From contig JAMPEQ010000001.1 in assembly GCA_023665085.1 (NCBI GenBank), forward strand, positions 124,001 through 188,000: a DNA stretch of 64,000 bases. The letters are read 5' to 3'. A model generated the notes under the pieces. The model did no database searches, had not been told where the DNA came from, and saw only the letters and a list, made by a program, of their open reading frames with translations. This document shows positions 10,621 to 30,910 of the stretch, piece by piece; the first letter of the stretch is position 1; every line of letters begins with the position of its first letter. A program made the translations under genes and the position numbers. This DNA is from Bacteroides sp. GTDB taxonomy: Bacteria; Bacillota; Clostridia; Oscillospirales; Acutalibacteraceae.

Positions 10621-11592
10621 TTATTTGATCCTCAATTCATCGACAGCCACACGGTTGTCGGTAATAATCTTTATATTATATCCGCTTTCAATAAGAAGAT
10701 ATATATTGCTTTTTCTGTTTCCTTTCAGCTTTGAAAGTGATTTTTCATTTACATACACCTGATAATCGCCGGGAGGATAATCAAGTATTTTATTTACCAA
10801 AATTCGTGATTTTACTATCTCACCAAAGGAGTCATGGAATCCGCCGGCGAGCATATTTTTCTTTATATCATCACTTGAATGAAGTCCGAGTCTTATAATT
10901 TTTATCCCTGCCTTTTCAAACATGGGAACTAATATTGAGCAAATATATGCCGAATCATCAACGCCAAAGGGTTTATATTTCTCAGCAAGATAAAGCTCAG
11001 CAAGATATGTATTTTTAAGCACAACTGTTGGATAAATTCTTACAGTTGACGGTGCAAGCTCAATTATCTTTTCGGCAGTGTCAATATCCTTTTCAAAGGT
11101 GTCCTTATAAAGACCTGTCATCATCTGAAGTCCCAGCTCAAAGCCGTTTTCTTTTATAAGCTTTGATGCATCTGCAACCGCCCGTGCACTGTGACCTCTT
11201 CTGTTTGCGATAAGCACCTCATCATCCATACTTTGTGCACCAAGTTCAATGCTTGTTACACCATAGCTTCTAAGTATATCAAGAATCTCCTGATCAATAC
11301 AGTCAGGTCTTGTAGAAATTCTTATGCCATTAACCTGTCCGCTTTTTACGTATGAATAAGCTGACTCAAGCAGAGTTAACATATAATCTCTGTCGATTGC
11401 AGTAAACGAGCCTCCGAAAAAAGCTATTTCATATTCATAATCTTTACGCTTTAAAGCCTTTTCTACTGTATTTTTTACATCCTCTGCAGTAGGCTGGTCT
11501 GCTTTGCCTGTAATAGTTTTCTGATTGCAGAAGGAACAAATACACGGACATCCGAGATGAGAAACAAAAATACTGATATTTCCTTTTTTCAT
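10621..11592 (-). CDS. Elp3-like radical SAM protein
   Basis: A 323-residue radical SAM enzyme. The cluster ligands are Cys15, Cys19 and Cys22 (C-x3-C-x2-C, in GCPCICSFCNQ), followed by a GGSFTAID glycine motif typical of Elp3-like radical SAM domains. No acetyltransferase domain is attached, so it is not a full Elp3. Genes of this type recur between rnc and smc in Clostridia, but a substrate is not established; tRNA or protein modification is a guess from the family. It overlaps rnc by 4 bases and abuts smc. Confidence 0.85.
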   Translation of the reverse strand: MKKGNISIFVSHLGCPCICSFCNQKTITGKADQPTAEDVKNTVEKALKRKDYEYEIAFFGGSFTAIDRDYMLTLLESAYSYVKSGQVNGIRISTRPDCIDQEILDILRSYGVTSIELGAQSMDDEVLIANRRGHSARAVADASKLIKENGFELGLQMMTGLYKDTFEKDIDTAEKIIELAPSTVRIYPTVVLKNTYLAELYLAEKYKPFGVDDSAYICSILVPMFEKAGIKIIRLGLHSSDDIKKNMLAGGFHDSFGEIVKSRILVNKILDYPPGDYQVYVNEKSLSKLKGNRKSNIYLLIESGYNIKIITDNRVAVDELRIK

Positions 11593-12263
11593 ATTCCCAT
11601 TAACCTTAATGCTTCTTTAGCTGCAGCTCTTTCAGCACCCTTTTTGCTTTTTCCTTTGCCTCTGCCGATAGTATTTGAATTAAGATAAACCTCTGCAACA
11701 AAGGTTTTATTATGATCAGGACCATACTGGTCAACTATTGCATATCCAAGAGTTTCATCAGGATTCTGCTGTACAATTTCCTGAAGTGTGGTTTTATAAT
11801 CAAAATGCTTCAGCTTGTGACTTTCGAGAACGGGCACAAGAAATTTCAATACAAATTTCTTTGCTTCCTCCATACCACCGTCAAGATAAATTGCCGCAAT
11901 AAGAGCTTCAAATGCATTTTCCAAAGTTGAATCCCTGTCATAGCCCTGCATATTAATCTCTCCTCTGCCGAGAAGAAGATAGCTGCCAAGATCCAATTCC
12001 CTTGCAAAACCCGAAAGACTTTCTGTGCAAATAAGCGATGATCTTATTTTTGTAAGGTCACCCTCCGGTGTTTTTGAAAAGCGTGTATATAAAAGTTCTG
12101 CAGATACAATTGAAAGCACTGCATCACCTAAAAATTCCAATCGTTCATTGCAGACTGATCCTTTATGCAAAGGCTCGTTGGCGTAGGATGAGTGTGTCAA
12201 TGCCTGCACAAGATATGACTTTTTTTTAAATTTATAACCTATTTTTTCCTCAAGTTTTTTCAT
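11589..12263 (-). CDS. rnc: Ribonuclease III
   Basis: Double-stranded RNA endonuclease for rRNA and mRNA processing. I choose the ATG at 12263 (224 residues, beginning MKKLEEKIGYKFKKK) because a GAAGGA ribosome site lies 6 bases before it. The frame runs 12 codons further into plsX without family similarity. The RNase III signature ERLEFLGDAVLSIV is at about 40-53, and a C-terminal double-stranded RNA binding domain ends in KGKSKKGAERAAAKEAL. In many Firmicutes acpP lies between plsX and rnc; it is missing here. Confidence 0.95.
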   Translation of the reverse strand: MKKLEEKIGYKFKKKSYLVQALTHSSYANEPLHKGSVCNERLEFLGDAVLSIVSAELLYTRFSKTPEGDLTKIRSSLICTESLSGFARELDLGSYLLLGRGEINMQGYDRDSTLENAFEALIAAIYLDGGMEEAKKFVLKFLVPVLESHKLKHFDYKTTLQEIVQQNPDETLGYAIVDQYGPDHNKTFVAEVYLNSNTIGRGKGKSKKGAERAAAKEALRLMGI

Positions 12264-12273
12264 TACATTTCCT

Positions 12274-13299
12274 TCAATCTGAATTACTGCCACTGTCACC
12301 AGAATTATTTTTAATATTTTCTAATTCTTTTTTTATTTCATCAATAAGGCTGTTTTCCAAAAACCATACAGCCTGCTTAACAGCATTTTTAAAGGTACGT
12401 GCATCTGCAGAGCCATGAGCCTTAATAACAGGCTTTTTTACCCCCAGCATCACTGCACCGCCGTATTCTTTATAATCGAATTGCTTCTTCATATCATCAA
12501 CACCTGACTTAACGCCAAGATATGAAATTTTTGATAATGTATTTTTCATAAATGCAGCCTTAATGCCGTTCATAAGCACCTTTGCTACACCCTCATATGT
12601 TTTTAAAATCAGGTTGCCGGCAAATCCGTCTGCAACAATAACATCAGCATCACCAAAAGGAATCTGTCTGCCCTCTATATTTCCGACAAAGTTATACGAA
12701 GCGTTTTTCATAACAGAATATGCCTCTTTGACTGCAGGAGTACCCTTAGTATCCTCTTCACCGATATTTGCAAGTGCAACTCTCGGGTTATCATATTTCA
12801 TGATATGCTTCATATAAAGACTTCCCATTAAGCCGAACTGATACAGATGCTCTGCTCTGCATTCCGCATTTGCACCGCAATCCATAAGCAGAATAGGCTT
12901 TTTCGCACTAGGCATTATAGAAGCAATAGCAGGTCTCTTAACACCTGATATACGCTTTACAATAAATGTTGAGCCTACGGTTACAGCACCTGTATTTCCG
13001 GCACTGACAAATGCATCACCTTTTCCGTCGCTAAGCATCCTGAAACCTACAGCCATAGATGAATCTTTTTTTGTTTTTCTGACAGACATAGGATCATCGT
13101 GCATAGTTATAACATCTTTAGCATCAACGATTTCGGTATTCTTTAATGTTATATTATTTTCCAAAGCACATTTTTTTATTACATTGATATCCCCGACAAG
13201 TATAATATCAACACCGTATTCATCAACAGCAAGCATTGAGCCTTTTATTATTTCAAGAGGTGCATTATCACCGCTCATAGCATCAACAATAATTTTCAT
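12274..13299 (-). CDS. plsX: Phosphate acyltransferase PlsX
   Basis: Converts acyl-ACP to acyl-phosphate, the donor for PlsY in phospholipid synthesis. The protein begins MKIIVDAMSGDNAP, the family signature, and contains GAVTVGSTFIVKRISGVKRPA and LMDCGANAECR. Its 341 residues are typical. It stops 10 bases before the chosen rnc start. No fabD, fabG or acpP follows, so its ACP partner must be encoded elsewhere. Confidence 0.95.
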   Translation of the reverse strand: MKIIVDAMSGDNAPLEIIKGSMLAVDEYGVDIILVGDINVIKKCALENNITLKNTEIVDAKDVITMHDDPMSVRKTKKDSSMAVGFRMLSDGKGDAFVSAGNTGAVTVGSTFIVKRISGVKRPAIASIMPSAKKPILLMDCGANAECRAEHLYQFGLMGSLYMKHIMKYDNPRVALANIGEEDTKGTPAVKEAYSVMKNASYNFVGNIEGRQIPFGDADVIVADGFAGNLILKTYEGVAKVLMNGIKAAFMKNTLSKISYLGVKSGVDDMKKQFDYKEYGGAVMLGVKKPVIKAHGSADARTFKNAVKQAVWFLENSLIDEIKKELENIKNNSGDSGSNSD

Positions 13300-20395: not shown

Positions 20396-20424
20396 ATACT
20401 AACACACTATGAATTATTTGTCAA
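20396..20424 (-). promoter_or_regulatory. Sigma-A promoter of infC-rpmI-rplT
   Basis: TTGACA (20419-20424) and TAGTAT (20396-20401) on the minus strand are 17 bases apart. The -35 box overlaps the last codons of the upstream acyltransferase gene, so there is no terminator between the two transcription units. Confidence 0.8.
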
Positions 20425-21522
20425 TAGTTTTTTTGAAGAACAAATACTTATCATTTTTGTGCATTTTATTGAATGCTGATAATAAGAAATCACAGACAAG
20501 CATACCTGCAAATCCCAAAACAACAGTCAGAACAAATGAGATAATAATATGCTCTTTTACAGAAAAATCAAAATGGCCTTGTCTTATTAATTCCCTTGCT
20601 GCACTCTGGCAAAGATAAAGCGGTAAGGACGCTTTACCCAAGAAATATGTAATTCTGTTATTATAAACCTTTGTTTCAAAATCTCTGCTGAAGCATATTG
20701 CAATAGCTAATGCATAAATAAATGTAACAAAAATTTCGTATTTTGATTTCAAATTGGAAAAAGTAAAATAAAGTCCGATTATCCAGCAAATGTTTTCGAT
20801 TAATATAAGTGATATTTTTCCAAGCTTTGTAAATTCAACGCTTCTGATTTTTTCAGAAACAATATAGCAGAATATACCAAGTGCAACACAACCTAAGGCT
20901 CTTAAATTACATACAAAAATATGTCCGTCAAATTCAGCTGTTCCCGGATAATTTGTGTAATTCTTTGCAATATAGCCGATAATCATTACTGACGATACAG
21001 GTGCAATAACTCTTGCTGTGAAATCAAAATTTTTAAGCAAGAGCGGATACATAATAACAAGCGCCAAAAGCATTGAACAAATATACCACTCGACTTGAAT
21101 AAACATCTTTTCGCTTATGCCTGTTTCAGATAAAAAGCAATACTGGGAAGTCTGTCAATAATATCAAAAACAAAACTCTCTCTGTTATGATAGAGAAATG
21201 TAAATACTGCAAAGGAACAAAATACAGCAAACAAGTGATAAGGTAAAATAGATACAATTTTATTTTTCATAAAATCATAAGTTGTTTTACCGATGTTTAT
21301 TTTGCTTTCCTTAAATTTCAATGCACTCTTTGCAGCGAGAAAGCCTGACAATAAAAAGAAAAATTCTACTGCAGCTCTTCCGTGAGCAAAAAATGACAAG
21401 TAAGCAGTAATCTCTTTAGATCCTGACATTGCATCCGAACCTATATGAAACACAATAACTATTATACAAAAAATAAATCTTAAAAGCTCAATTTTACCGT
21501 TTCTTTTTGATTTTGAAGCCAT
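20414..21522 (-). pseudogene. Acyltransferase family 3 membrane protein, split by a frameshift
   Basis: Two adjacent minus-strand frames make one protein. 21115-21522 (135 codons) has the family N-terminus IELLRFIFCIIVIVFHIG and FFFLLSGFLAAK. 20414-21106 (230 codons) has the later membrane helices starting VEWYICSMLLALVI. Restoring one T in the T5 run (plus-strand A5 at 21132-21136) joins them as ...SIAF-LSETGISEK-MFIQVEWY..., which reads as an intact ~370-residue acyltransferase with about ten membrane segments. Such enzymes O-acetylate cell-surface glycans. Either the gene is recently inactivated, phase-variable, or the base is a sequencing error. The 3' end overlaps the infC promoter. Confidence 0.8.
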
Positions 21523-25882: not shown

Positions 25883-25922
25883 TACAGGCATATTTTTGCA
25901 ATAAATATTGATTTTTAAACAA

Positions 25923-25967
25923 AATCAGACAATCAAATAAAAATTAATTTAATCTGACTGTCTGATT
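25923..25967 (-). terminator. Terminator of the SCP2/aminotransferase/transketolase operon
   Basis: A 9-bp stem AATCAGACA/TGTCTGATT (25923-25931 with 25959-25967) begins about 15 bases after the last stop. On the minus strand it ends in TTTTGTTTAAAAA. The loop is long (27 bases), so strength is uncertain. Confidence 0.6.
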
Positions 25968-25981
25968 CATGTTATATTTAA

Positions 25982-26779
25982 TTATTTTGCAAGATCGCCT
26001 ACAAGCATCATGTAATCGCCGATTTGAACGCCAAACTCAGGTGCACCCTCCATAATAAGCTGTTTATCAGCTGTCATCTGGAACATATCACCTGTTCCTA
26101 ACAAAATTTTTAATGCCGAGGTAGCACAGTCAAATTTCATACAGAAGAAAGGCTTTGATCTTTTATACTCGCCTCTTCCAGCTCTTGACTTTCCTGCCTT
26201 AACTCTCATATAAGCGGTACATTCAGGATGACCTTCAACTGCCCACTGATAGCAACGGTCAGGACTCTTTAAAGCCCATTCATGCACAGCAGGATGCCCC
26301 ATCTTATTAAGCTGGGAAATTCCCGAAGAAAGCAGATAGAAATACAGCTTGCATAAAAGCAGTGAAAGCTCTTCGTCATTTTCAGGCGGTTCTGAAATTC
26401 CAAGCAGAGATGACATTTTCAGAAGCACCATCATGAATTTAACAAACTTTCCAAACGACTTGATTTTCAGCTTTGGAAGAGAGGTCATTTTTCCTTTAAA
26501 AAATTCATTCATCTTTTCCATAGAAGAAAACTCAAGCTCTGCATCAATTTTCTTCTGCCCGAGATACTCACCGAGCTTAACACTCCACTCACCGTTTTCA
26601 ACGATAAAATGTGTTGCTTCTTTATCTTCGGCATTAGTCTTGGCAGAAACCTGATATATAGCATCAACGCCCTCAAACTTTTTTCTAAGCTCAGGAACAT
26701 CAGCAGCAATAGTTTTCATAAGCGGCAGTGCCCCTGCCATAAACACTTTATTAGTATAGCGTGTTTCATCACTTGCCAT
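25982..26779 (-). CDS. SCP2-like lipid-binding domain protein A (last gene of the operon)
   Basis: A 265-residue protein without signal peptide or clear membrane helix. Residues ~65-130 (ELEFSSMEKMNEFFKGKM, then a hydrophobic helix) and the C-terminal ~60 residues (ALKILLGTGDMFQMTADKQL, ending in a glycine turn) both resemble SCP2 sterol-carrier folds, which form a hydrophobic tunnel for lipids or acyl chains. The middle (about 170-215) is rich in Cys, His and Trp. It follows the transketolase C-subunit after 65 bases containing a hairpin. A second, diverged SCP2-like protein is the first gene of the same operon. Function unknown; lipid or hydrophobic substrate carriage is inferred. Confidence 0.6.
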   Translation of the reverse strand: MASDETRYTNKVFMAGALPLMKTIAADVPELRKKFEGVDAIYQVSAKTNAEDKEATHFIVENGEWSVKLGEYLGQKKIDAELEFSSMEKMNEFFKGKMTSLPKLKIKSFGKFVKFMMVLLKMSSLLGISEPPENDEELSLLLCKLYFYLLSSGISQLNKMGHPAVHEWALKSPDRCYQWAVEGHPECTAYMRVKAGKSRAGRGEYKRSKPFFCMKFDCATSALKILLGTGDMFQMTADKQLIMEGAPEFGVQIGDYMMLVGDLAK

Positions 26780-26818
26780 AATAATACACTCCTTTCAAAT
26801 TAGATAACCGTATGGAAT

Positions 26819-26846
26819 AATACAGCAATAGTCTTATTACTGTATT
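26819..26846 (-). promoter_or_regulatory. Hairpin between transketolase C-subunit and SCP2-like gene A
   Basis: AATACAG (26819-26825) pairs with CTGTATT (26840-26846) and further inner AATA/TATT pairs are possible. The right arm includes two bases of the transketolase stop codon. No U-tract follows, so mRNA processing or stabilisation is as likely as termination. Note the SCP2 gene lies downstream in transcription. Confidence 0.35.
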
Positions 26847-27855
26847 AAAATTCATCATCCCATGCATCATCTGCTTCAAAATCTGCATGCATCATTTCAG
26901 CAATCGCTTCATTGATACCATTAGCATCAATTTTAGCCATAGCTAGCAAATCTTCCTGCAAGCCGATAGTTGAGAAAGAATCCTGATGACCAAGCATTTT
27001 AAATGCGCAGGCCTTACCGCTCTTTGCAACAACTTCTGCAACTGCAGAGCCGAGACCTCCCATCACCTCATGATCCTCAACAGTGATAATTCTTCGGGTA
27101 TCCATGATGGCTGACATAACTGCCTCCTCGTCAAGAGGCTTGATTGTATGCATATTAAGCACACGCACTTTAAGACCTGCATCAGCTTCAGCCATACGAG
27201 CAGCCTGCATTGCCTCAAACACGCATGAGCCACAGGCAATAACAGTAATATCTGTTCCGTCATTCATAAGTGAAGCCTTTTTATAATCGAATTTGCAGTC
27301 ATCAAGATTTTTATATATAACCTGATCGAAACCGCGGTTAATTCTGATATAAACAGGGCCGGGAATATCATAAGCAGCTTTAACTGCATGATAAGTTTCT
27401 GTACCGTCACAAGGACAGATAACTGTCATATTAGGGAGAGTTCGCATACAAGCCATATCAATAAGAGAATGGTGAGTTGAGCCCGCCTGGCCGAATGAAG
27501 TACCTGCATGTGTTGCAATTATTTTTACAGGAACATTCTGATAGCATATATCTGTATGAATCTGATCTAACGAACGTGCTGCTGTAAAAATAGCAAATGT
27601 AGAGGCAAAAGGAACAAGTCCGTTTTTAGCCATACCTGCTGCAACGCTGAAAAGATTTTGTTCAGCAATACCTACATTAAAAAATCTATCAGGAAAATGC
27701 TCACCGAACATACCGATTTTAGTTGATTTAGCAAGGTCAGCAGTAAGAGCTACAACATCCTTATGTTCTTCACCAAGCTCACAAAGAGCAATACCATAGC
27801 ATTCAGCAGTTGAAAGCTTTGTAGTATCTGTCATTGTATATGTCATTCCACCCAT
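26845..27855 (-). CDS. Transketolase C-terminal subunit (split transketolase)
   Basis: 336 residues carrying the pyrimidine-binding and C-terminal transketolase domains: FFNVGIAEQNLFSVAAGMA with the cofactor-activating glutamate, then FASTFAIFTAARSLDQIHTD and THAGTSFGQAGSTHHSLIDM. It needs the adjacent N-terminal subunit to form an active thiamine diphosphate enzyme. Its ATG is 2 bases after the N-subunit stop, with an AAGGAGG ribosome site lying inside the end of that gene, so the subunits are made in step. Split transketolases transfer two-carbon ketol units and occur in both sugar metabolism and specialised pathways. Confidence 0.92.
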   Translation of the reverse strand: MGGMTYTMTDTTKLSTAECYGIALCELGEEHKDVVALTADLAKSTKIGMFGEHFPDRFFNVGIAEQNLFSVAAGMAKNGLVPFASTFAIFTAARSLDQIHTDICYQNVPVKIIATHAGTSFGQAGSTHHSLIDMACMRTLPNMTVICPCDGTETYHAVKAAYDIPGPVYIRINRGFDQVIYKNLDDCKFDYKKASLMNDGTDITVIACGSCVFEAMQAARMAEADAGLKVRVLNMHTIKPLDEEAVMSAIMDTRRIITVEDHEVMGGLGSAVAEVVAKSGKACAFKMLGHQDSFSTIGLQEDLLAMAKIDANGINEAIAEMMHADFEADDAWDDEF

Positions 27856-27857
27856 AC

Positions 27858-28751
27858 TTATGCCTCCTTCTCTGCTCTTTCGCAGCGTTCCTTATAGTAT
27901 TTATCAAGACTTGCATGAGCAGTCTTTATCATTTCATCATCAAGAGAACCGTAGTGCCACAGATAATTATCCTTCATAAAGTCAACGCCTTCGCCCTTGA
28001 AAGTATCCATAACAATAGCAGTTGGCTTGTCACCGCCATCCTGATGATTTTTAATTGCAGCTTCAATGGCATCATTGAGTTCTTTGAAGTTATGACCATC
28101 AACACGAATAACATTAAAGCCGAATGCTTCAAATTTCTTATCGACAGGCTCAACCTTCATTTCATCATCAACTCTACCGTCAATCATGCATTTATTTACA
28201 TCGGCAAAAACGACAACATTAGAAAGCTTAAACTGAGCAGCACTCATTGCAGCCTCCCAGTTTGAGCCTTCGTTAAGCTCACCATCACCTGTAACAACAT
28301 AGTTCATATAATCAATGCCGTTTACTCTGCCTGCAAGAGCAAAGCCGACAGCAAGCGAAATACCATGACCTAATGAGCCTGTAGAACAGTCACATCCAAC
28401 TACCTTATTACAGTCAAGGTGCATACCGATTTTAGCCCCGGTTAAGTTAAATATTTTAAGCTCATCAACAGGCATAAATCCGTAATCAACAAGTACAGGA
28501 GCATAGCCTACTGCAGCATGACCTTTTGAAAGAACAAAACGATCTCTGTCAGGCATTTCAGGATTATTAACATCAAGTTTCATGAAGCGATGATACAGAA
28601 TAGTCATAACATCCATAGCACTCATTGCTCCGCCGAGATGACCTGAACCACCCCAAACTGCTGTCTGAATAGACAGTCTTCTAAGTTCATCTGCCTTTTT
28701 CTCAAGGCGCAGCCATTCATTTTTATCAAACGGCTTGTAGTTAGCTGGCAT
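27858..28751 (-). CDS. Transketolase N-terminal subunit (split transketolase)
   Basis: 297 residues with the thiamine diphosphate and metal site of transketolase: GDGELNEGSNWEAAMSA (GDG...N motif) near residue 155, preceded by the histidine-containing GGSGHLGGAMSAMDV and SKGHAAVGYAPVL. The partner C-subunit follows after 2 bases. It starts 26 bases after the aminotransferase gene. Finding the pair beside an aminotransferase and two SCP2-like proteins rather than pentose-phosphate genes suggests a dedicated role. Confidence 0.92.
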   Translation of the reverse strand: MPANYKPFDKNEWLRLEKKADELRRLSIQTAVWGGSGHLGGAMSAMDVMTILYHRFMKLDVNNPEMPDRDRFVLSKGHAAVGYAPVLVDYGFMPVDELKIFNLTGAKIGMHLDCNKVVGCDCSTGSLGHGISLAVGFALAGRVNGIDYMNYVVTGDGELNEGSNWEAAMSAAQFKLSNVVVFADVNKCMIDGRVDDEMKVEPVDKKFEAFGFNVIRVDGHNFKELNDAIEAAIKNHQDGGDKPTAIVMDTFKGEGVDFMKDNYLWHYGSLDDEMIKTAHASLDKYYKERCERAEKEA

Positions 28752-28777
28752 AAAAATTCCCCCTAAAAGTTTTTATA

Positions 28778-30049
28778 TTACTTAAGATAAAGTTCAGGAT
28801 GATTTGCGGCAACTACTCCGAAAGCATCTTCTGCAATATCAACAGCAAGCTTAATATCATCATCAGTAACAGCGGCATTCATGAAATGATTGTGGTGAGA
28901 GGCAAGGAACAAGCCTCTTGAAACACACTCAGCAATCCATTCCTGATGAAGCATAAGGCTGTCATCATTTGCTATTCTGAGATAGAACAATGCCGGCTCA
29001 CCTGAAACAACAAGATTAAATCCATGCTCCTTAGCTGCTTCTTTTAATCCTTCAGTAAGCTTAATACCATTTTCTCTGAACATGGCAGGAGTATCAAGTC
29101 TTTTCATTTTTGGTATACATGCAAGGCAGGCAGCAAAGGGCTCTGCACTCATCCAATAAGAGCCTGTATAAACAACTGACGAAGCAGTATTTTTCATATG
29201 CTCCTGACCGCATACAGCAGACATATTATATCCGTTTGCAAGTGCTTTGCAGAAACAAATAAGATCAGCCTTAAATCCGTAATAATGGTCAGAGCCCTGA
29301 AGATCAAGTCTAAAGCCTGTACGTACGTCATCAATTATAAGCACCATTCCATGATCATCACAGAACTTGCGTACTTTAGCCCACTGTTCTTTAGTAGCAC
29401 ACTCATTATCTTTAAAATTACCATGATCATAAGGCTGAGCAATAAGACCTGCCACATCTCCGCCGCAGGCATCATAGGCCTCCTGCATTGCATCAATGTC
29501 AAACCACGGTACGACAATATTATTCTCTACCTCTTCAGGTAAAATTCCGGGATAGTCAATCTTTTGAGCCCACTGGAAATCACCATGATAATATCCCTTA
29601 AAGAACATCATCTTTTTCTTGCCTGTATGTGCTCTAGCACACATAACACTAAAGGTTGTAGCATCTGAACCGTTCTTCATGAAGAATGCCCAGTCAGCCA
29701 TGGCAACTGTATCCTTAAGAAGCTCAGCACATTCTACCATTTTGTAGGACGGAGATGTGGTGCAGTTGCCTATTTTAAGCTGTTCCATAGCGGCAGCATC
29801 TACATCATCATCACAGTATCCAAGAACATTAGGACCATATGCGCACATAAAATCAAGATATTTGTTTCCGTCAACATCCCAGAAATATGTACCCTTTGCT
29901 TTTTGAGACATTAAAGGCCATTTTGTGATAGGAAGAAAAAGACCCTCTGATGGTCCAAGATGACCATACACGCCTGACGGAATTGCATTCAGTGCTCTTG
30001 AAAACCATTCTGCACTTTTTTCATGTTTATATTCAGGATATTTACTCAT
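28778..30049 (-). CDS. Class III PLP aminotransferase, glutamate-1-semialdehyde aminomutase-like
   Basis: 423 residues of the class III (subgroup II) aminotransferase family. The PLP lysine is probably Lys268 in CFCKALANGYNMS, the cofactor aspartate is Asp240 in LIIDDVRTGFR, and the N-terminal TYFWDVDGNKYLDFM and FFMKNGSDATTFSV motifs match glutamate-1-semialdehyde aminomutase-like enzymes. No other haem or tetrapyrrole gene is nearby, so a true HemL is unlikely. Its place between an SCP2-like protein and a split transketolase suggests it aminates a ketone product. Substrate unknown. Confidence 0.88.
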   Translation of the reverse strand: MSKYPEYKHEKSAEWFSRALNAIPSGVYGHLGPSEGLFLPITKWPLMSQKAKGTYFWDVDGNKYLDFMCAYGPNVLGYCDDDVDAAAMEQLKIGNCTTSPSYKMVECAELLKDTVAMADWAFFMKNGSDATTFSVMCARAHTGKKKMMFFKGYYHGDFQWAQKIDYPGILPEEVENNIVVPWFDIDAMQEAYDACGGDVAGLIAQPYDHGNFKDNECATKEQWAKVRKFCDDHGMVLIIDDVRTGFRLDLQGSDHYYGFKADLICFCKALANGYNMSAVCGQEHMKNTASSVVYTGSYWMSAEPFAACLACIPKMKRLDTPAMFRENGIKLTEGLKEAAKEHGFNLVVSGEPALFYLRIANDDSLMLHQEWIAECVSRGLFLASHHNHFMNAAVTDDDIKLAVDIAEDAFGVVAANHPELYLK

Positions 30050-30062
30050 TTACCTTTCCTCC

Positions 30063-30827
30063 TTAACCAAGATAAACAGCAACTCTGCCAAGAATTCTGT
30101 TGATATTATCAACCATAGAAATCATACCGCTCATATAAATATTACCTGCGCAGAGCTCTGCCATTGTTGAGGCAGTGCCCGTAAATAAACCAAATGCAAG
30201 ATCAAGAGTATTGAATTCCATGATTGCTCGTGGTGTATCAGGTTTTTCCTTGATTGTTTCAAACTTATGGTCGCGTACTCTGATGGTTGCATAGCAAACA
30301 TCGGTTATACCAATCTGAACATCGCCGTCAACTGTATATAATGCCGACTGCTGTGAAATAGAATCTGCATTTGCAAGAGCAGAAATAGCACCGGCAATAG
30401 TATAGAATGTCAAAATTGTTGACTCTTCAAAAAATGCTCTGTTCTTTAAATCATCTTCACTTGGTCTGAGCAGCTTAGTAAGCCTGTCTGTCAGCTTAGT
30501 AAATGGACCAAGAAGAAAAGACAGAACCTGTGGAATATTTTTTACAGGCATGCCCGGTTTGCTGTCATCAATAAGAGCATTGAACTTTTCAGGTGAAGAA
30601 AAATTCATTTTGCAGGTACAGCCATAGCTTCCTTCACTTATTGTGCATCCTTTTGGCGAAAAATGAAATGTACGGCATGGACCATCAGCAACATCAAAGC
30701 AGAGAGATACAGGCTTTTTGATTTGTTCACAAATTCTTTTAGCCTCTTCATCTATTTCACAAAGATCTTCGAGAGTCGCAAGCACACCATACATATTTAC
30801 ATATGCTAAAGCTTTTGCTTCTTTCAA
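30063..30827 (-). CDS. SCP2-like lipid-binding domain protein B (first gene of the operon), TTG start
   Basis: 254 residues when started at TTG 30827, which has AGGAGG 7 bases upstream; the frame runs 22 codons further across the promoter and cannot be coding there. Residues ~75-125 (MNFSSPEKFNALIDD...) and the C-terminal ~55 residues (AIMEFNTLDLAFGLFTGTAS then MSGMISMVDNINRILGRV) have the SCP2 pattern. The first third is cysteine rich (Cys23, 33, 43, 51, 61, 70, 72), which may bind metal or a cluster. No signal peptide. It starts an operon with aminotransferase, split transketolase and SCP2-like protein A. Confidence 0.65.
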   Translation of the reverse strand: MKEAKALAYVNMYGVLATLEDLCEIDEEAKRICEQIKKPVSLCFDVADGPCRTFHFSPKGCTISEGSYGCTCKMNFSSPEKFNALIDDSKPGMPVKNIPQVLSFLLGPFTKLTDRLTKLLRPSEDDLKNRAFFEESTILTFYTIAGAISALANADSISQQSALYTVDGDVQIGITDVCYATIRVRDHKFETIKEKPDTPRAIMEFNTLDLAFGLFTGTASTMAELCAGNIYMSGMISMVDNINRILGRVAVYLG

Positions 30828-30881
30828 TATAATTCCTCCTAACAAATATGTAGTAAACACGCTAATAAAATGTACAAATTC

Positions 30882-30910
30882 ATTATAGCACACCTAAAAA
30901 AATATAGCAA
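30882..30910 (-). promoter_or_regulatory. Promoter of the SCP2/aminotransferase/split-transketolase operon
   Basis: A perfect TATAAT (30882-30887) lies 17 bases from TTGCTA (30905-30910) on the minus strand, about 55 bases ahead of the TTG start. Confidence 0.7.

Follow-up and report, generated by a model that had tools for sequence, protein, structure and literature searches.

The head group of long-chain 2-amino-1,3-diols (sphingoid bases) is made or broken by the serine palmitoyltransferase and sphingosine-phosphate lyase routes. Hydrolysed fumonisin B1 is an analogue of sphinganine that carries a hydroxyl at C3; the aminotransferase FumI uses pyruvate to convert it into its 2-ketone by moving the C2 amine (PMC2933618; this and all other articles cited here are represented by excerpts), and UbiJ, a protein of the SCP2 fold, is proposed to keep a lipid tail in place for a group of soluble enzymes (PMC9499169). 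In the transketolase of E. coli D469 and R91 form a salt bridge (PMC5073344); the wild-type enzyme favours hydroxyaldehydes as well as donors hydroxylated at C3 and C4, and its D469T variant is described as propanal-accepting (PMC10787763). Here we describe a five-gene operon encoding two tandem SCP2-like proteins (A and B), a class III aminotransferase (AT) and the N and C subunits of a split transketolase (TN and TC), located in a 64,000-nucleotide stretch (the window) of contig JAMPEQ010000001.1 of assembly GCA_023665085.1 (positions 124,001 to 188,000; deposited as Bacteroides sp. and placed by GTDB in the Acutalibacteraceae).

We tentatively read the operon as a lipid-handling pathway that takes sphingoid bases apart. 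A would hold the lipid while the FumI-type AT transfers the amino group at C2 onto a keto acid, which would leave a 1,3-dihydroxy-2-ketone; B would present this ketone to the split transketolase, which would cleave the C2–C3 bond, a sugar phosphate receiving the two-carbon ketol unit while a long-chain aldehyde is released, to be oxidised in relatives by an aldehyde dehydrogenase. The proposal builds on the gene order, protein families, active-site changes and partner genes that we observed, from which we infer the lipid substrate, a carrier function for A and B, the order of the steps and the direction. Regardless of direction, we lean slightly towards amino-diol lipid chemistry as the function of the operon. 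Its features are:

30882..30910, minus strand: promoter-like site TTGCTA-17-TATAAT with a TG before the -10 (extended -10), 10/12 matches
30063..30827, minus strand: gene A, tandem SCP2-like protein of 254 aa, TTG start (Pfam SCP2 matches of relatives)
28778..30049, minus strand: gene AT, class III aminotransferase of the FumI (aminopentol aminotransferase) clade (tree and scores)
27858..28751, minus strand: gene TN, transketolase N subunit, catalytic His kept, Asn at the R91 position (residue alignment)
26845..27855, minus strand: gene TC, transketolase C subunit, Ala at the D469 and R358 positions (residue alignment)
25982..26779, minus strand: gene B, second tandem SCP2-like protein, 265 aa (profile and fold comparison)
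25900..25975, minus strand: terminator-like hairpin 3' of B, -23.7 kcal/mol, T-rich tail (folding)

The five genes are co-directional and tightly packed, with gaps of 13, 26, 2 and 65 bases, just as the original prediction, made from this sequence alone, had described them, and they are kept together beyond close relatives, in numerous gut Clostridia and in scattered other genomes. When named genomes were scanned with AT, 63 of the best 80 loci (out of at least 554 relatives) carried the complete five-gene set with order and strand unchanged, among them the locus of Eubacterium coprostanoligenes ATCC 51222 (L095; L and G numbers are our labels for loci and genomes) and one in which the AT frame is in two pieces (L148); seven others end at a contig end and ten hold A–AT only. 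Profile searches retrieved the same gene order in G197, G353, G435 and, up to the contig end, G168, the identities of G197 to the window being 34, 57, 53, 63 and 52% for A, AT, TN, TC and B, respectively. Among the 40 nearest genomes (own included) A occurs in 20, all of the same genus (20/25, and 0/15 in other families), AT is full-length in 19 and partial in a twentieth, and B is present in 18; the set is absent from five genomes of the genus, one with a completeness of 97% and the others of 62 to 88%. Nine of the ten A–AT-only loci were followed up (L122 was left out): three of these genomes hold TN–TC–B elsewhere and six have neither B nor an operon-type TC, and G257 also carries A–AT without the transketolase–B pair. 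Among 20 genomes compared, those with B are precisely those with an operon-type TC (at least 440 bits). This distribution indicates that A goes with AT and B with the transketolase. At two loci (L227:6474-9373 and L228:4171-6974), with the transketolase module outside the view, a short-chain dehydrogenase lies directly upstream of A–AT.

On sequence grounds AT is a FumI-type enzyme, apart from HemL, an identity that would have spoken against the original prediction. FumI is its best solved relative both in sequence searches (275.4 bits vs 153.6 for the best HemL) and in profile searches (405.6 vs 224 bits), and in a tree of 28 sequences 20 operon-type AT proteins group with FumI in a single clade (support 100/100, stem 2.83), FumI being a single sequence there and, like some outgroups, a long branch. 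Identities are 36.6-43.8% to FumI (36.6% for the window enzyme) and 28-35% to HemL. The NCBIfam HemL model gives 183.4 bits against a cut-off of 527.3, and the top NCBIfam match, GntE, another class III enzyme, 195.4 bits against 525; tree placement and scores rule out HemL and a haem function for AT. A literature search for fumonisin gene clusters with more enzymes gave nothing further, nor did the review PMC4845651. The window genome also encodes two long HemL-like class III aminotransferases of 494 and 496 aa (L195:163-5525 on contig 17 and L194:5558-7048 on contig 31), which fall outside the FumI clade; one of them has a class II aldolase as neighbour and, judged by eye, genes for a TetR-type regulator and for an FGGY-type sugar kinase.

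The transketolase combines an intact catalytic apparatus with an altered substrate pocket. The positions that we take to be thiamine diphosphate (ThDP) and catalytic residues are kept in all readable loci (E411 in 76/76, H26 and H66 in 79/79, H100 in 78/78 and H261 in 77/77), in line with the intact motifs reported originally. Positions are given in E. coli numbering, which for part of them follows PMC7661550, PMC5073344 and PMC10787763. The operon enzyme lacks the D469 and R91 pair of pentose-phosphate-type transketolases: D469 is replaced by Ala in 76/76 operon loci and R91 by Asn in 77/77 readable ones (79 examined), while R358 is Ala, Ser or Gly in 75/76 and is kept in G198, and S385, H461, R520 and H100 are unchanged. 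Housekeeping-type split transketolases from 16 genomes, with or without the operon, keep R358, D469 and R91 in 16/16. We assume that the D469/R91 pair reads a neighbouring substrate hydroxyl. Given that D469T is described as accepting propanal and that the wild-type enzyme prefers hydroxylated substrates, loss of D469 would fit a partner without a hydroxyl where sphinganine has a CH2, and the retained H100 would fit a ketol unit with a C1 hydroxyl, not an acetyl unit. The retained S385, H461 and R520, which serve sugar-phosphate binding, would fit a sugar phosphate as the second substrate. An ordinary split transketolase is encoded separately in the window genome (contig 28 of G000), and an ordinary pentose-pathway function of the operon enzyme was set aside on this ground; an additional 616-aa transketolase-type frame is presumably DXS.

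The SCP2 assignment of A and B, made in the original prediction, held up: Pfam SCP2 is matched by 10 of 18 relatives of A, and both A and B are assigned to the SCP2 fold, the hhalign probability being 2.4 with narrow genus profiles and 98.2 with wider ones. Searches of Pfam, NCBIfam and PDB sequences with A or B, alone or as genus profiles, gave no useful match, and the best PDB hit of the wider A profile had an E of 0.73. Both proteins may act as lipid carriers. B contains a strongly conserved basic stretch at residues 192-207 (RVKAGKSRAGRGEYKR, window 26159-26206), partly of low model confidence, which is perhaps a contact to the transketolase or to phosphate. Six cysteines of A (C24, C44, C52, C62, C71 and C73) are invariant in 17 genus sequences (alignment A1, columns 24-73), and of these C24 alone is kept in the wider alignment A7.

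The direction of the pathway is suggested by the partner genes of relatives. In the family drawn around G288 A was found in 10/150 genomes and B in 9/350. In the stretches read, TC adjoins B at all nine of these B loci, eight also hold TN (the ninth reaches a contig end) and four A–AT; D469 is again Ala (9/9) and R91 Asn (8/8 readable). A downstream aldehyde dehydrogenase is present at 6/9 loci, as is a zinc alcohol dehydrogenase (6/9), the former at a distance of 3 bases from B in L248 and of 6 in L249. Five of the nine loci have a MerR or GntR gene as neighbour (L247, L250 and L230 checked with Pfam; L249 and L254 by eye), and L247 also holds an OYE-type oxidoreductase, a transporter and, further along, a FadB-like gene. 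The nearest named match of the aldehyde dehydrogenase is the benzaldehyde dehydrogenase MdlD, below cut-off, and its C-terminal motif looks to us like that of class-3 (fatty-aldehyde) enzymes. Since aldehyde dehydrogenases normally oxidise, the most economical interpretation is a pathway that releases an aldehyde, through aminotransferase, retro-transketolase and aldehyde dehydrogenase. At L230 (genome G571) a serine palmitoyltransferase-like gene (11096-12274; 541.8 bits, cut-off 640) lies near TN–TC–B and the alcohol and aldehyde dehydrogenase genes, across the GntR gene, and the best A match there does not exceed 19.8 bits.

The same enzymes could run forward, B holding a fatty aldehyde to which the transketolase adds a ketol unit, and AT aminating the resulting 1,3-dihydroxy-2-ketone to a sphinganine-like amino-diol, without serine palmitoyltransferase, as the original prediction proposed. 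The best oxoamine-synthase matches are indeed weak in the genomes of the window (20.7 bits) and of E. coprostanoligenes (18.2 bits; cut-off 535.4), in a search whose controls gave a signal in 13/14 genomes and exceeded the cut-off in two. TC and AT are strongly conserved within the genus (mean column identity 95% and 92%), H100 speaks for a ketol unit in this direction too, and UbiJ is an example of an SCP2 protein with a proposed part in lipid synthesis (PMC9499169). The gut bacterium Flavonifractor plautii is reported to make phytosphingosine (PMC11914097), which is a lead only, as the excerpt names no biosynthesis gene; from the counts of A and B in the G288 family the presence of the operon in this species cannot be assumed. 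Synthesis is further opposed by the aldehyde dehydrogenase within the operon of relatives and the regulators beside it, and by G197, which has the full operon and two oxoamine synthases as well (567 and 398 bits). We regard this direction as unlikely. Of the original proposal, support is found for the conserved gene set, the SCP2-type fold, an aminotransferase other than HemL, a transketolase pocket that has lost a conserved polar pair and a genome with no oxoamine synthase above 21 bits; its direction is less well supported, as the aldehyde dehydrogenases, the regulators and the one locus with fatty-acid-type genes in relatives point rather to breakdown.

Another hydrophobic or water-soluble α-hydroxyketone/amine pair, such as a specialised metabolite or an unusual sugar, with the SCP2-like proteins as scaffolds or binding something else, is rather doubtful, and several observations that weigh against sphingoid-base breakdown speak for it. 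The retained S385, H461 and R520 would also suit a wholly sugar substrate. In the G288 family R358 is kept at 6/9 loci and S385 is Thr at 4/9, which weighs against breakdown. A split transketolase without SCP2 genes (L208:7647-11283, genome G168) has Gly at D469 and Asn at R91; it is perhaps a further non-pentose transketolase, in an apparent operon that by eye includes an alcohol dehydrogenase, a short-chain dehydrogenase and a GntR-type regulator. An odd seventeenth split transketolase (L185) has Asn at both positions, so that loss of D469 and R91 is not unique to enzymes with SCP2 partners. Genomes with A–AT but no transketolase–B pair, and the two A–AT pairs behind a short-chain dehydrogenase, also speak for another substrate. 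Against breakdown there is further that B matches no Pfam family, the fold models of A and B are of modest quality (pLDDT 69 and 62) and found nothing at E <= 0.001 in Foldseek, and the operon is far from universal, its occurrence being scattered: when the phylum was sampled evenly, A was found in 7/398 genomes and B in 5/398. No aldehyde dehydrogenase lies beside the window operon, the rest of the genome not having been searched for one. Further conserved neighbours are few, the operon genes being found in 60 to 76 of the best 80 loci and the next clusters in 19 (on the opposite strand), 15 and 14. By eye, we noticed among the 30 largest neighbour clusters of these loci no aldehyde dehydrogenase, which counts against breakdown, no lipid-building gene, which counts against synthesis, and no sugar kinase, isomerase or sugar transporter, which counts against a sugar substrate. 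The relation of AT to FumI and the SCP2 fold of its partners both suggest long-chain substrates. That AT is HemL, the transketolase an ordinary pentose-pathway enzyme and their neighbourhood accidental is highly improbable: both enzymes come from large families and NCBIfam lists the HemL and GntE models for AT, though below cut-off, but the tree and scores, the ordinary split transketolase elsewhere in the genome and a five-gene order kept across families all contradict it.

With regard to expression, the promoter-like site upstream of A is among the two best of 15 sites in a region whose site count is no higher than that of shuffled sequences, and the hairpin downstream of B is absent from the list of the scan that gave this site. 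Gene A most likely starts at the TTG behind AGGAGG, since in several relatives a stop codon interrupts the longer listed frame. Elsewhere in the window (20414-21522, minus strand), an acyltransferase-like membrane gene recognised by eye consists of two adjoining frames of 230 and 135 aa, possibly one gene split by a frameshift or stop.

It seems to us an evenly balanced question whether, in Bacillota including gut Clostridia, a FumI-type aminotransferase and a split transketolase with an emptied sugar-hydroxyl pocket swap two-carbon head units between sphinganine-like lipids and the pentose phosphate pool, each enzyme being served by a tandem SCP2 carrier of its own; according to the clade, the pathway would run as degradation, together with an aldehyde dehydrogenase, or as synthesis free of serine palmitoyltransferase. 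The literature listed in our searches, which covers no preprints and few subscription papers, contains no transketolase/aminotransferase route to or from sphingoid bases in what it holds on such routes, on sphingolipids of Clostridia or on lipids of E. coprostanoligenes. If our reading is right, it is the pathway as a whole that would be new, each part being a member of a known family. It would tie gut Clostridia, including the cholesterol reducer E. coprostanoligenes, to intestinal sphingolipid turnover, and would provide a natural transketolase acting on lipids, of which the literature matches listed hold no example.

Compared with known systems, the operon would offer an additional route for building or cleaving the sphingoid head group, unlike the serine palmitoyltransferase and lyase routes in that the window genome has no oxoamine synthase above 21 bits and no lyase is found among the five genes. 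AT shares its class III clade with FumI of Sphingopyxis (PDB 6hbs), which acts on long-chain compounds at a C2 amine adjacent to a C3 hydroxyl; the FumI substrate lacks a C1 hydroxyl, and the enzyme serves fumonisin degradation, with no transketolase or SCP2 partner mentioned in the excerpt of PMC2933618. A and B resemble UbiJ in their fold, and differ from it and from other SCP2-domain proteins in being tandem two-domain proteins that occur as a pair of paralogues in each operon, one for each enzyme. The split transketolase of Carboxydothermus hydrogenoformans (PDB 6yaj/6yak) has the two-chain build and the catalytic His/Glu positions of TN/TC but keeps R358, D469 and R91, which are Ala, Ala and Asn in the window enzyme. 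An engineered E. coli transketolase (D469T, R520Q, S385Y) has D469 substituted, as by the natural Ala of the operon enzyme, and also alters S385 and R520, which the latter leaves unchanged; it is tempting to speculate that the operon encodes a natural counterpart of enzymes that biocatalysis groups had to engineer.

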